Source: Hahella ganghwensis DSM 17046 | GTDB taxonomy: Bacteria > Pseudomonadota > Gammaproteobacteria > Pseudomonadales > Oleiphilaceae | Length of the DNA stretch: 64,000 bases | NCBI RefSeq assembly: GCF_000376785.1 | Contig: NZ_AQXX01000132.1 | Coordinates: 1 to 64,000, forward strand | Direction of reading: 5' to 3' | Shown: in pieces, positions 59,503 through 63,942 of the stretch | How the letters are laid out: every line of letters begins with the position of its first letter | Numbering within the stretch: position 1 is the first letter of the stretch | Position numbers and translations under genes: made by a program | Notes under the pieces: model-generated | Told to the model about the DNA's origin: nothing | Database searches by the model: none | Seen by the model: the letters and a program-made list of their open reading frames with translations, nothing else

Positions 59503-61590
59503 TTACAGGAGTATAAAAGGATACCCTGCATTGAGTGCCGGTGTCTCCGGAGGTGCGTTAGCGTTGACGTCTTCGGTATTTTCCTCGTTTTCGTTTTCGC
59601 TTTCCTCTTCTTCGTCATCATCAGAGCTGCCGGCAATATCATCGAAGACACTGCCGTTATCTTCTTCGTCCGGGATAATAAATTCCTGCTCCAGTGTATC
59701 TGCCAGAGGGGCATATATTCTCTCTTCCACCAGAATCAGTTCACCATCATTGGGGTTGAGGTTTTCCACGATCGCCGCTCCCTGCCTTCTGCGGGTAATC
59801 ACCATGGCGGTCCTGTTCTCACTGTCGAGTAAGGGAAATTCGCAGAAATGGATATCGGGACCGGCCTCACCTGGGGTGGCGTTAATGTAGCGGCAGGTTA
59901 CGGTCGGAAGATCATCCTGGTGAAACTTTTCTACAAGTTCGATATCCGGACTTGCTGCACAGGCGGTTGCCAAATCACCGGGGTCTGTCGAAAAAACTTT
60001 TATTGTGGATAAAGTGTCGTCTATGTAGCAGTGGTAGGTGAACTGTGAATCGTAATCGGAAGATTGCTCAAGCCTGGTCAATGCATAGGAGGTATCATAA
60101 TCAGCCTGATAGTGTAGCTTGACCGTGGAAGACTCGGTGTCAGTGACTTCTGAAATACGAGTAGCCTCGTCATGTAGCATTTCAGTGTATGACTCTCCAT
60201 CCGGATCCACATATAAAGCAGTCAACTCTGTTAAAGACGGGTTTTCGGGAAAGCGATGAACTGCAAGTCCGGCGCCAGCTTCTTCGATTTCCGGATCAGG
60301 ATTCAAATCTTCCAGGACGACGCTTGATATGAGATCCCACTCTCCATCAGCTTCCAATATCTCTGTGGAAAAAAGTTTATGGAAAGCCCGAGGAATAATC
60401 ACGGCCTCTCCACGGGACGGGACAGTGGAGTAGGTATATCGATTGTAATAATCCACTCCACCGTCAATCCGCGCCGTAGACACTCTTTCGTCAGCAAATC
60501 GGCTGAACTGAACATGTCCTGTCAGTTTGCTGTTAGGGATCAGGTCGGCTAACTCAGGTGCCTGGTAGTTTGAATCGATTTGGGCTGAAGAAGGAATGGG
60601 GAAGTAATAAGCCGTATTCAGAAATGAATCAGTCCTTTGTCTGCTGGTGGAGTTTGAAGAGACATACCATTTTTGTTCGGATAAGACTGCTGGGTTGTCA
60701 AAGCTTGTATCTACAAGCCCCATATGCTCCAGTTCGGTGCGAAAGTTATCAAAGTTCAATGCTTTGAGATCATCTTCGGACTGCAACAGCTGCCTGAGTG
60801 TGGTGACCTCCTCTGGACTCCCCTGCAGTGCCCACTCAGCAAACCCAGTGAGTGATTCTGCGCTGGCACGAAGAAGGTTGGCGGCAGTCATGTCGGCAAC
60901 ATCGCCGTCAACCTGGCTTAGAAGGTTATCTTCCACCACCATATTCTGGCCGTTGTACAGTTCCTGTTGCACAGTGATGAGAGATTTGGCCAGTGAATGC
61001 AGAACATAGTTTTCACTGGAGACATAGTCCTGCAGTAGATCGGATTCAAGCCCTACCCGTGTTCTGACTCTATTGTGGGCTGAACCATAAGTTGCGATCC
61101 CGTCACGTCGTTGAAGATAATCATATTCCGCCACGATCAGTGTCGTCAGGGGGGTAATGTAAGGGTTTCCTGGTGGGCTGCTCAGGATATAGCCTTCTTC
61201 GACTATACCAAGGGCCTCATTTTCACCCACCATATCATCCTCATCTACTGAAATACCGGGTAATACATGAGCCATCATTCGGTATTGTCGTGGTGACCCC
61301 AGGTCGCCCATCATGCTTTTGGTAAAAGAGAATCGACCTCCATCACGACTCATGACGTTAGGCTCGCCCTCATCCAACTGGAAATTTTCATTAATATCCA
61401 GCCATACGCGGGCGTGCCGGAGATAACCGTCCATGACCCTGCCATTAAGTGTACTGGCGGAGGAGCCGGTATTGCCCACCGGAGGCGTTAGCGTTTCGCG
61501 TTCGGGAATACTGGACTCCTGACCACCACAGGCCGAAAGTGTGTAGATGACTGTGACAAAGAGTGCGGATTTGTAAAGGTGCTTCGCCAT
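59503..61590 (-). CDS. large acidic lipoprotein
   Basis: The 695-residue product has a signal peptide with lipobox TLSAC (Cys about 21) and GGQESS. An N-terminal domain NGRVMDGYLRHARVWLDINE...QLDEGEPN (about 50-78) resembles a calcium-binding type found in secreted proteins (VWLDxNxNxxLDxGEP). The middle is unrecognised. The end has a very acidic tract (about 645-680) of Asp, Glu and Ser. The gene lies opposite to its neighbour at 61766. No named family. Confidence 0.75.
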   Translation of the reverse strand: MAKHLYKSALFVTVIYTLSACGGQESSIPERETLTPPVGNTGSSASTLNGRVMDGYLRHARVWLDINENFQLDEGEPNVMSRDGGRFSFTKSMMGDLGSPRQYRMMAHVLPGISVDEDDMVGENEALGIVEEGYILSSPPGNPYITPLTTLIVAEYDYLQRRDGIATYGSAHNRVRTRVGLESDLLQDYVSSENYVLHSLAKSLITVQQELYNGQNMVVEDNLLSQVDGDVADMTAANLLRASAESLTGFAEWALQGSPEEVTTLRQLLQSEDDLKALNFDNFRTELEHMGLVDTSFDNPAVLSEQKWYVSSNSTSRQRTDSFLNTAYYFPIPSSAQIDSNYQAPELADLIPNSKLTGHVQFSRFADERVSTARIDGGVDYYNRYTYSTVPSRGEAVIIPRAFHKLFSTEILEADGEWDLISSVVLEDLNPDPEIEEAGAGLAVHRFPENPSLTELTALYVDPDGESYTEMLHDEATRISEVTDTESSTVKLHYQADYDTSYALTRLEQSSDYDSQFTYHCYIDDTLSTIKVFSTDPGDLATACAASPDIELVEKFHQDDLPTVTCRYINATPGEAGPDIHFCEFPLLDSENRTAMVITRRRQGAAIVENLNPNDGELILVEERIYAPLADTLEQEFIIPDEEDNGSVFDDIAGSSDDDEEEESENENEENTEDVNANAPPETPALNAGYPFILL

Positions 61591-61765: not shown

Positions 61766-62914
61766 GTGGTGAGAGGCATTTTACAGTTGGTCGCGGTTCT
61801 GGGGTTGGGCGTGTTGCTTGGGTGGACCCTGATGAGCGATGCCCAGAAACGATGGTTGAAGCACCAGGCTGGACTGGAAATTCCGGAGCTTCCGGTGGTT
61901 CCAGTGCCTCAGGTTATGGAGCCTCCGTCCATACCGATGACTCTCAATGAGGAAGAAGGGCGCGAGCAACTTGACCTGCAAAGGATCGGAGAGCTGTTTC
62001 AGCAACATTTCAATTGTGTTCGTCCTGAAACCGGGAAAATTACAGAGCAGCCGCGAACGCAGATTTATTCCTGGGTTGATTCCGAGGGACGCAGGCACTT
62101 TTCTGATCAGGCTCCGGAAAAGACCAGGATCGAAGATTTAAGTCAGCAATACGGAGGTGAGTTGGCGTATTTTGATCTCAACATCAGCTCACCGGACGGA
62201 ATTATTGCAACAGGCGTTAGAGATCGCCTGGAGACCGATGTCAGGGCAATTTACCGATACCTGACCAAGGATCTGGGTATTCAGCACATGCGAAAAGTCG
62301 CGTTGAACTTGAAAATCTATGTTGAACCCGGGCACTTTGAAAAATACCGGAACGAGCGGGCACCTGGGCTTTCTGGGGCGGCCGGATTTTATACCACTGA
62401 TGGTAATGAGGCTGTTGTTCTACAACGTTCACCTGCCCATACACTTCGTGTTTCCAGACATGAGGCAACGCATGTCATCGTGGCCGGGCTCTATGGCAGG
62501 ACTCCCATGTGGTTCAACGAAGGCCTGGCAGAGTTCTTCGCTGATTATGAAGCCAAAGCCATGAGTCGTACTCAGGAGATTCCTTTCTGGAGGGCAGAGC
62601 ATTTGAGACAAATGATGGAAGGTGACCGTTTGCCTGATCTGGAAGGCTTTCTGAGAGTGACGCCGATAGAGTGGCGCAATGCCGACCCGGCCACAATGTA
62701 TTCCATGGCCTGGTCTGTTGTGGCATTCCTAATGGCCACTGAGGATGGTCGCGATACTATGGTTAAGGTAATGGATCATCTAAATGAAAATCCCTGTTCG
62801 ACTGTGCCCTCCAAAACCTGGATAGAGGATTATTATGCTGGTGGCTGGGATAAATTCGAGGATGGATGGCACCACTGGCTCAATAAACGGCTTTTAGGAC
62901 TGGCGCGAAAATAA
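61766..62914 (+). CDS. DUF4124-containing protein with gluzincin-like region
   Basis: The GTG-started 382-residue protein has CTGGAGG upstream and a membrane anchor (about 4-24). A DUF4124-like segment IYSWVDSEGRRHFSDQAPEK (about 95-114) is followed by a peptidase-MA-like domain with SRHEATHVIVAGL (HExxH, about 234) and MWFNEGLAEFFADY (downstream Glu ligand). This suggests a membrane-anchored periplasmic metalloprotease, not yet assigned a role. Confidence 0.83.
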   Translation: MVRGILQLVAVLGLGVLLGWTLMSDAQKRWLKHQAGLEIPELPVVPVPQVMEPPSIPMTLNEEEGREQLDLQRIGELFQQHFNCVRPETGKITEQPRTQIYSWVDSEGRRHFSDQAPEKTRIEDLSQQYGGELAYFDLNISSPDGIIATGVRDRLETDVRAIYRYLTKDLGIQHMRKVALNLKIYVEPGHFEKYRNERAPGLSGAAGFYTTDGNEAVVLQRSPAHTLRVSRHEATHVIVAGLYGRTPMWFNEGLAEFFADYEAKAMSRTQEIPFWRAEHLRQMMEGDRLPDLEGFLRVTPIEWRNADPATMYSMAWSVVAFLMATEDGRDTMVKVMDHLNENPCSTVPSKTWIEDYYAGGWDKFEDGWHHWLNKRLLGLARK

Positions 62915-62941
62915 AAAAAATTGAGATCTATGAAATTGATA

Positions 62942-62979
62942 AATAAAAAAAGCCTCGATTCGGAAATCCGGCACGAGGC
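62942..62979 (-). terminator. intrinsic terminator of the candidate small RNA
   Basis: Read on the minus strand, GCCTCG (62979-62974), an inner CGGA/TCCG pair and CGAGGC (62957-62952) fold into one interrupted hairpin and are followed by seven T's (62951-62945), then ATTT. The orientation is opposite to the convergent DUF4124 gene ending at 62914. Confidence 0.85.
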
Positions 62980-63089
62980 ATAAGGCACGAGCGTAGAGGT
63001 AACAGTCATCGTACAGAAAAGTACCCTGACTATCGGTAAAGAAAGTGTCTGAAATGCAAGTCGGTTGCATGTCAGAAACACGATCTTCC
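62945..63089 (-). ncRNA. candidate sigma-54-dependent small RNA
   Basis: On the minus strand, from about 63089, the sequence folds into two strong hairpins before ending in a terminator. Stem 1 pairs 63065-63081 with 63045-63059 around a GUCGG-complement loop, with two small bulges. Stem 2 pairs 63021-63031 with 63004-63014 (outer AGUCA/UGACU, inner GUAC/GUAC). The terminator stem GCCTCG/CGAGGC (62974-62979/62952-62957) is followed by a run of seven T's. No frame within it looks coding. The length would be about 145 nt. NrsZ of Pseudomonas is a known NtrC/sigma-54 RNA of similar architecture; no sequence homology is claimed. Confidence 0.65.
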
Positions 63090-63099
63090 CTTTAGGTAT

Positions 63100-63116
63100 T
63101 GCAGTGCGCGTGCCAA
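63100..63116 (-). promoter_or_regulatory. sigma-54 promoter
   Basis: On the minus strand TTGGCACG (63116-63109), then CGCA, then CTGCA (63104-63100) matches TGGCACG-N4-TTGCA at all but one position. The GG-to-GC distance is the required 12 bases. Transcription would start at about 63089, 12 bases past the GC. This is the only clear sigma-54 site I see in an intergenic part of the window. Confidence 0.8.
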
Positions 63117-63224
63117 GTCTGAAATAATTTTTTAAATTATTGATAAGTAAGAGAATTAACCGGGTTTTATAATCTTCTGAAAGATCCTGAAGAGAAGTCC
63201 TGATGCCCTATTTGCAACCTCTTC

Positions 63225-63239
63225 GCACCAAAAAGGGGC
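63225..63239. promoter_or_regulatory. NtrC-like enhancer site
   Basis: GCACC-AAAAA-GGGGC matches the NtrC palindrome GCACC-N5-GGTGC with one mismatch. It is centred about 143 bp upstream of the predicted start, a normal distance for a sigma-54 enhancer. Only one site is visible; strong NtrC promoters usually have two. Confidence 0.55.
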
Positions 63240-63288
63240 GCTGCAGAGCTGTCATCCGGCGGAGGTGATGGAAAGTTTCTGGCATGAG

Positions 63289-63942
63289 CTACAATCGAAA
63301 TCTCACTCTTTTCCAGAGCCAGCCGGTTAATCCGAAATTTAGGGTCATCATCAATGCAAACCACCACTCGGTGGTATTTTCCCACCGGTCCTTGGCTGGG
63401 TTTTCCTGTGTCAGGGTCGCGCCGAGACTGACCAACCCGACAATCAGGATGCCTGAAAGCAATACCAGCATATAAGTGATTGGAGGGTAATGCTCTGCTT
63501 CAGGGTAATGCTTCAGTGATCGATAAAAAATCATCTGGGCCAGAGCTGTGAAAGTGAAATAGATAATGACTCCGTAGCGTCTCATTAACCGGTAGATATC
63601 ACCTTCGGTTCCCAGATAGGTGGCATAAAGCACCAGAAAGATTGCGCCGGTAACCCCCAGGAAACTGACAATACGCCCATGAGCACGCTGTTTCACCTCG
63701 CGCCGGAGGAAGGCCTGGCATACCTGCCAATAAATTACCATGTAACCGGCACTGAATATCATGCTCGCTTTAAACAGGTAGATAGCATCTGAAACGCGCG
63801 CCGCTTTGCTGATTGAGACACAGCCGTCCCAATAGGGGTTGCACCATGGAATCAGTTGCAGTCCGCTGCTCCATAGCCAGCATCCATGAATGCTGATTAA
63901 GGGAAGAAAACAGATCAGGTACGCAATAGTGGTTGGTTGCAT
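63289..63942 (-). CDS. membrane protein of unknown function
   Basis: The ATG at 63942 (MQPTTIAYLIC) gives 217 residues; 63975 is an alternative start. About six hydrophobic helices are seen. An early periplasmic loop WCNPYWDGCVSISKAAR carries two cysteines and recalls Frag1/DRAM-type membrane proteins. The charged end is KRVRFRL. Its 3' side leads to the sigma-54 element. The substrate or role is unknown. Confidence 0.7.
   Translation of the reverse strand: MQPTTIAYLICFLPLISIHGCWLWSSGLQLIPWCNPYWDGCVSISKAARVSDAIYLFKASMIFSAGYMVIYWQVCQAFLRREVKQRAHGRIVSFLGVTGAIFLVLYATYLGTEGDIYRLMRRYGVIIYFTFTALAQMIFYRSLKHYPEAEHYPPITYMLVLLSGILIVGLVSLGATLTQENPAKDRWENTTEWWFALMMTLNFGLTGWLWKRVRFRL

Follow-up and report, generated by a model that had tools for sequence, protein, structure and literature searches.

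A candidate small RNA gene with a sigma-54-type promoter and an invariant core in Hahella ganghwensis

Few small RNAs (sRNAs) under sigma-54/NtrC control have, to our knowledge, been described. NrsZ of Pseudomonas aeruginosa is described as an NtrBC/RpoN-controlled, processed RNA of about 226 nt encoded between ntrC and PA5126 (PMC8395346, PMC9731577). CrcZ of Pseudomonas is described as an Hfq decoy of 407 nt that lies between cbrB and pcnB and has a promoter involving RpoN, IHF, and CbrB (PMC8395346). GlmY of the Enterobacteriaceae is introduced as a small RNA that depends on sigma-54 and has activator sites upstream (PMC6075780). NcS25, a porin sRNA of Burkholderia cenocepacia, pairs with a Shine-Dalgarno region through a single-stranded seed; it is reported to have no sigma-54 motif upstream and a level that is unchanged under nitrogen depletion (PMC10117139).

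The DNA analyzed here, a 64-kb stretch from H. ganghwensis DSM 17046 referred to below as the window, contains an intergenic gap of 374 bp at positions 62915-63288. A first-pass annotation had placed a candidate nitrogen-regulated sRNA gene in this gap, between a plus-strand and a minus-strand gene, and each of the elements it named was found in its place (Table 1). Taken together, the evidence indicates that the gap carries a real sRNA gene with a sigma-54-type promoter, undescribed within the searches made. Searching Rfam 15 at the gathering cut-off revealed no family at the gap and only a tRNA elsewhere in the window; extension to an E value of 10 returned two sub-threshold snoRNA matches, which were rejected, and no bacterial sRNA family. 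No study of a Hahella sRNA was found in the open-licence literature as judged by titles and the beginnings of abstracts, nor, by title and among the papers listed, a Hahella paper on NtrC-dependent sRNAs in gammaproteobacteria.

Table 1. Features of the gap and of the genes at its borders, in window coordinates
Feature	Positions	Strand	Remarks
Plus-strand gene left of gap	61766-62914	+	DUF4124 and DUF1570 matches; convergent to sRNA
Predicted sRNA, about 145 nt	62945-63089	-	Both ends predicted
Intrinsic terminator hairpin and T run	62945-62979	-	Fold prediction
Invariant core ACTGTTACCTCTACGCTCGTGCCTT, 25 nt	62982-63006	-	Identical in 8/8 loci
Hairpin P2	63001-63034	-	Fold prediction
5' stem-loop P1	63035-63091	-	Begins 2 nt before predicted +1; varies between lineages
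Sigma-54 -24/-12 element TGGCACGCGCACTGCA	63100-63115	-	11/12 consensus positions
IHF-type site TATCAATAATTTA	63133-63145	-	9/9 of consensus WATCARNNNNTTR
Second shared element CAAATAGGGCA	63204-63214	-	By eye; a short way downstream of NtrC-like palindrome
NtrC-like palindrome CGCCCCTTTTTGGTGCG	63224-63240	-	9/12 consensus positions
Membrane-protein gene right of gap	ends at 63289	-	Frag1 match, below Frag1 cut-off

The sigma-54 promoter postulated on the minus strand was confirmed as a -24/-12 element. The motif TGGCAC-N6-TGC occurs once in the 64 kb when both strands are counted, and scoring of both strands gave one site of at least 11/12, two of at least 10, and 14 of at least 9. As a point against the gene, a simple scanner listed no sigma-70 promoter. 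The predicted +1, at 63089, was set 12 nt past the C of the -12 GC. Directly upstream of the RNA, GG-N10-GC was present in all eight loci at which the gene was found (L001, in the H. ganghwensis genome itself, to L008), with scores of 11, 10, 9, 9, 9, 9, 10, and 9 of 12, respectively, the sites having been picked by pattern and by eye. A sigma-54-type promoter ahead of a structured, non-coding RNA gene is a well supported reading of these sequences.

The eight loci were identified in a DNA search of 38 genomes, which matched the genome of origin, all six other Hahella genomes in the set, and G010, a metagenome-assembled genome (MAG) of another genus in the same family (locus L008). By sequence, these copies represent about four lineages: L001/L002, L003-L006, L007, and L008. 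A pattern search of 163 genomes of the family, with up to two mismatches, matched 10: the eight carriers without a mismatch and two coding stretches (L017 and L018, genus g12), which were rejected. The L017 fragment resembles octaprenyl diphosphate synthase, below the curated cut-off, and L018 was called coding from its likeness to L017. This prenyl diphosphate synthase coding segment (near position 1501 of either locus) shares 19 of 21 bases with the core in the same sense, probably by chance.

The covariance-model search of related genomes that the annotation had called for was also performed. A model of the seven Hahella copies recovered the held-out L008 at 36.5 bits. Deeper scoring of 10 chosen genomes found all seven carriers, including the six that had contributed to the model, and none of three others. 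Across 390 genomes of the order, with nine candidates per genome scored, the model gave the H. ganghwensis copy and two weak matches, in a scan that might miss a relative as weak as L008; the weak matches (29.7 and 25 bits) were taken as chance because they lie inside frames of 666 and 407 aa. A scan of genome contigs for an exact 18-mer of the core gave six stretches. It allowed no mismatch, may omit records close to the H. ganghwensis genome, and was not exhaustive, the carriers G001, G002, and G006 being absent from its output. Four were in Hahella sp. CCB-MM4, HN01, and PL25b_bin.18 and in the sister MAG, Gammaproteobacteria MAG 6_bin.2; the two unrelated ones (L019 and L021) were taken as chance because they overlap open reading frames and reached only 13.6 and 14.8 bits.

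Conservation in relatives was evident for the core and the -24/-12 element, both present in all eight copies, with diverged flanks. Identity over hairpin 2 and the core was 100% for L001/L002, 92% for L001/L003, 81% for L001/L007, 78% for L003/L007, and 59% for L001/L008. In the same pairs, global alignment of the flanking DNA, ahead of the promoter and beyond the terminator, gave 38-51%, in our judgement the level expected of unrelated sequence; flanks within the L003 type are more alike (59-85%). Identity in the P1 region was 78% for L001/L002 and 17-54% between lineages.

The two hairpins and the intrinsic terminator that had been described, in matching orientation, agree with the predicted fold. 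The minus-strand RNA has a folding energy of -49.2 kcal/mol versus -30.9 (S.D. 3.2) in 200 shuffles, none of which was as good (z = -5.66). The terminator was not listed by a simple terminator scanner, its loop being longer than the scanner limit of 8. Among the relatives, the predicted RNA ranges from 100 to 164 nt. P1, P2, and the terminator were all predicted in L001-L006, and in L007 P1 was obtained by a constrained fold at a cost of 0.6 kcal/mol. The 5' end of the L008 RNA (from locus position 1449) is predicted to pair not within P1 but with the first part of the core, CUGUUACC, closing eight core bases, a pairing that may possibly act as an occlusion switch.

Covariation was counted from hairpin 2 to the terminator in seven copies (six distinct rows), with P1 left out and the L007 terminator one base off. 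Of 500 shuffles, 117 attained the covariation score of this alignment and 21 its number of pairs changed on both sides; both double changes come from one copy, L007, and several cells are unpaired. Pairing was found in 91.7% of cells versus 27-45% in slid versions, a percentage reached by 5 of 500 shuffles. In a hand-chosen register, P1 has one G-C to A-U double change and the terminator has two, each setting L007 apart from other copies. The compensatory changes foreseen for relatives were found in small number, and all derive from L007. Given that covariation support for the RNA is weak, the assignment of an sRNA gene rests mainly on the fold energy, the placement of promoter and terminator, and the core, with its stronger support in the promoter element and core conserved in all eight loci.

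The invariant stretch sits between hairpin 2, where its first six bases are paired, and the terminator. In L001, 15 of the 25 core positions are unpaired at a probability of at least 0.9, and the mean unpaired probability is 0.61 versus 0.38 elsewhere; the mean for the L008 core is 0.54. The core contains an anti-Shine-Dalgarno-like ACCUCU and is followed by the terminator with its U run, a trait of Hfq-dependent sRNAs. The first-pass annotation had suggested that the hairpin loops may bind targets, which is not supported: loop sequence differs from lineage to lineage, and what is invariant falls outside the loops. It is likely that the invariant core, rather than the loops, is the target-binding part, and base pairing with mRNAs is the best reading of how the RNA would act.

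The upstream region was inspected for sites of possible regulators. The NtrC-like palindrome was present as described, with one mismatch in the inner 15-mer GCCCC-N5-GGTGC (63225-63239); over the full 17-mer, three of 12 positions are mismatched. When the best 17-mer 50 to 230 bp upstream was compared with 1000 shuffles, an NtrC-type site was found at -124/-125 from the -24 T in six of the eight loci (L001-L006), with scores of 9, 9, 9, 11, 10, and 11 of 12 and with 28, 70, 74, 0, 7, and 1 shuffles as good, respectively. Taken alone, the H. ganghwensis site is only moderately unlikely to have arisen by chance. The best 17-mers of L007 (8/12 at -123) and L008 (8/12 at -147) were not above chance, with 527 and 487 of 1000 shuffles as good; the right half of the L007 site resembles that of L004.

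As a yardstick, the same consensus was applied upstream of the best-matching P-II gene of each of seven Hahella genomes, where NtrC-type sites scored 11/12 in two genomes, 10 in four, and 9 in one. In the four G001-type genomes, this site is followed by a -24/-12 site of 9/12. The P-II genes of G000, G004, and G003 (L037, L038, and L039) have no upstream -24/-12 site of at least 9/12, which makes the yardstick imperfect. A further 11/12 NtrC-type site, GGCACCATAATGGTGCA, precedes the gene of G000, the H. ganghwensis genome, that we take to be ntrB from its sequence and its place before ntrC. In the H. ganghwensis genome, ntrC was found on contig C143 and the sRNA on contig C132; rpoN and hfq were found in all four genomes tested.

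The AT-rich, bend-like palindrome that had been noted was likewise present (63123-63141, minus strand) and overlaps the full match to the IHF consensus. Scoring of the best site up to 75 bp upstream of the promoter against 1000 shuffles gave 9/9 in six of the eight loci (L001 and L003-L007, on the opposite strand in L007), with 12 to 31 shuffles as good. The L002 site scored 8/9 (250 of 1000), and that of L008, at 6/9, was not above chance (995 of 1000).

Control by NtrC, as the annotation had proposed, is plausible: the fixed-position site in six of the eight copies is consistent with it, but none above chance was found in L007 and L008. The same sigma-54-dependent, trans-acting sRNA could instead answer to another enhancer-binding protein, CbrB-like or orphan, and to a signal other than nitrogen. 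Such an activator could drive the sRNA because 21 of 110 matches in an NtrC-model search of G000 cover the central activator part. The imperfect palindrome of H. ganghwensis and the chance-level sites of L007 and L008 also accord with this, as does the second shared element, which reads TAGGGCAY in L001-L006 by eye and has no assigned role. However, the constant position of the NtrC-like sites in six loci, their scores of up to 11/12, the 0 and 1 of 1000 shuffles as good in L004 and L006, and their resemblance to the ntrB site make a different activator possible but unlikely.

We consider it probable that the gap encodes a sigma-54, NtrC-controlled, trans-acting sRNA that pairs through its invariant core. 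As part of that reading and at the same strength, the gene would be independently transcribed and would belong to Hahella and a single sister lineage. Sequence comparison shows the -24/-12 element, the terminator, the predicted structure, and a core that does not vary; we infer from there that the gene is transcribed, that it depends on NtrC and IHF, and that its RNA binds Hfq and pairs with targets. These steps may be arranged as follows. Sigma-54 RNA polymerase would bind the -24/-12 element, and phosphorylated NtrC, formed at nitrogen shortage, would bind the palindrome ∼125 bp upstream. IHF would bend the AT-rich DNA in between, so that NtrC can open the promoter. The resulting RNA of ∼145 nt would end at its own terminator, with the 5' hairpins protecting and spacing the molecule and the U run providing an Hfq-type 3' end. 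The core, predicted to be unpaired over much of UUACCUCUACGCUCGUGCCUU, would pair with one or more mRNAs and so alter their translation or stability during nitrogen limitation.

Searches for putative targets gave no enrichment. In six genomes, GAGCGTAGAGGTAAC with up to two mismatches was matched 50 times, six of these on the sRNA itself, versus 56 for the reversed control, and in four genomes GTAGAGGT-N3-8-ATG was matched 49 times versus 52 for the control. At sites of the latter pattern, 23 open reading frames of at least 50 aa were predicted, and no two different loci were alike. Among the 15-mer hits one site stood out, 30 nt before hutU, and it occurs in all four genomes of the G001/G002/G005/G006 type. 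Predicted hutU duplex energies were -21.9 (G004) and -22.3 kcal/mol (G000), values that about 4% of 221 background starts equalled or bettered, -19.8 kcal/mol in the G001 type (11%), and -15.7 kcal/mol in G003 (33%). The background includes loci chosen for related patterns, among other genera in some cases, and also the hutU loci. G010 gave no hutU match. Given that hutU was chosen after many sites had been viewed and that the background is not independent, it is a weak lead rather than a target.

AANAANAA is an A-rich Hfq/Crc motif, and GGA is a CsrA/RsmA motif. A role in the titration of a protein, either Hfq/Crc in the manner of CrcZ or CsrA/RsmA, in place of base pairing would fit the target searches without enrichment and the five GGA per copy in L003-L006, and it has a precedent in the RpoN/IHF/CbrB promoter and Hfq decoy function attributed to CrcZ (PMC8395346). 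That AANAANAA occurs in none of the eight RNAs and that GGA is absent from L007 and L008 argue against titration, which we regard as very unlikely. Returning to an sRNA that pairs through its core, a more specific and doubtful extension can be drawn. It would be a lineage-restricted RNA family with a 25-nt functional core and the rest free to change, made at nitrogen limitation to adjust the catabolism of nitrogen-rich substrates, e.g. histidine via hutU, and pairing in each species at a differently placed site near the same start codon.

That no protein is encoded, as had been claimed, is consistent with the absence of any open frame with a start codon common to all eight copies beyond 2 codons; in H. 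ganghwensis the RNA is overlapped by a GTG frame of 82 aa, which the relatives do not share. A small-peptide mRNA or a dual-function RNA whose core encodes CYLYARAL would explain why the frame DCYLYARAL/HCYLYARAL is open through the core in all eight loci. Against this, no ATG, GTG, or TTG opens the frame before the core in L007 and L008, and the wobble positions of the core are invariant too. An ATG just before the core is present only in L001, L002, and L007, and the GTG inside the core that is common to all eight, in another frame, yields only 2 codons in L003-L006. With no start in L007 and L008 and a shared GTG frame that is too short, the peptide reading was rejected as highly improbable.

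The neighbourhood of the sRNA is partly kept among carriers. In seven of the eight carriers, the contig that bears the sRNA also has, a few kb away at most, a homologue of the AstE/AspA-type gene; in G003 this homologue is on a different contig. The G003 sRNA is followed by a DUF4124-like gene and a gene for a lipoprotein. The DUF4124/DUF1570-like protein there is likewise convergent to the sRNA (by eye), and a protein near the sRNA is 29% identical to a putative lipoprotein of 695 aa in the window (59503-61590, minus strand) that has no Pfam or NCBIfam match. A strictosidine-synthase-like frame, matched by eye, lies near the sRNA in L004 and L008. The sequence CATCGTAGAGGTAAC recurs in G000 at offsets 2503 (contigs C39 and C80) and 1982 (C40 and C119), in loci L054, L060, L072, and L150, which suggests a repeated element near contig ends.

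In L001, L002, and L007 the long frame after the sRNA is convergent; in the L003-L006 type it runs in the same direction as the sRNA, so a leader function would not be general. That the gap holds no gene, but either motifs grouped by chance around a terminator or a leader/attenuator serving a downstream gene, is extremely improbable: the same-strand lipoprotein gene starting ∼130 nt past the terminator in the L003-L006 type would suit a leader, but the convergent frames in the other Hahella lineages oppose it, and a promoter element and core present in all eight loci oppose chance.

In relation to the described systems, the Hahella RNA resembles NrsZ in its sigma-54-type promoter, its non-coding nature, and its NtrC-type control, which is only proposed here, but it is predicted at about 145 nt and is not beside ntrC. 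In the 1.5 kb downstream of G000 ntrC, no -24/-12 site of at least 9/12 was found, apart from which two sites on the opposite strand reached 8/12. The kinship with NrsZ entertained in the first-pass annotation is not supported: the two genes differ in their genomic place, and the core 18-mer was unseen in Pseudomonas in the exact, non-exhaustive scan, NrsZ itself being compared by description. With CrcZ, the Hahella RNA shares an enhancer-dependent sigma-54-type promoter with an IHF site, but CrcZ has an Rfam family, whereas the Hahella RNA matches no Rfam sRNA and lacks the AANAANAA motif. GlmY, under sigma-54 with QseF/GlrR, is similar in promoter logic and also has an Rfam family, unlike the Hahella RNA. 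For both CrcZ and GlmY, the analogy is limited to promoter logic. NcS25 is likewise a small RNA with a seed but, unlike the Hahella RNA, has no upstream sigma-54 motif. The best reading of these comparisons is that the Hahella RNA would form a new family among sigma-54-dependent, enhancer-controlled sRNA genes. The sharp limits of its invariant core lend it readily to mutation and target tests. If the RNA is confirmed, unrelated sRNAs would seem to have been recruited to nitrogen control on more than one occasion in gammaproteobacteria.
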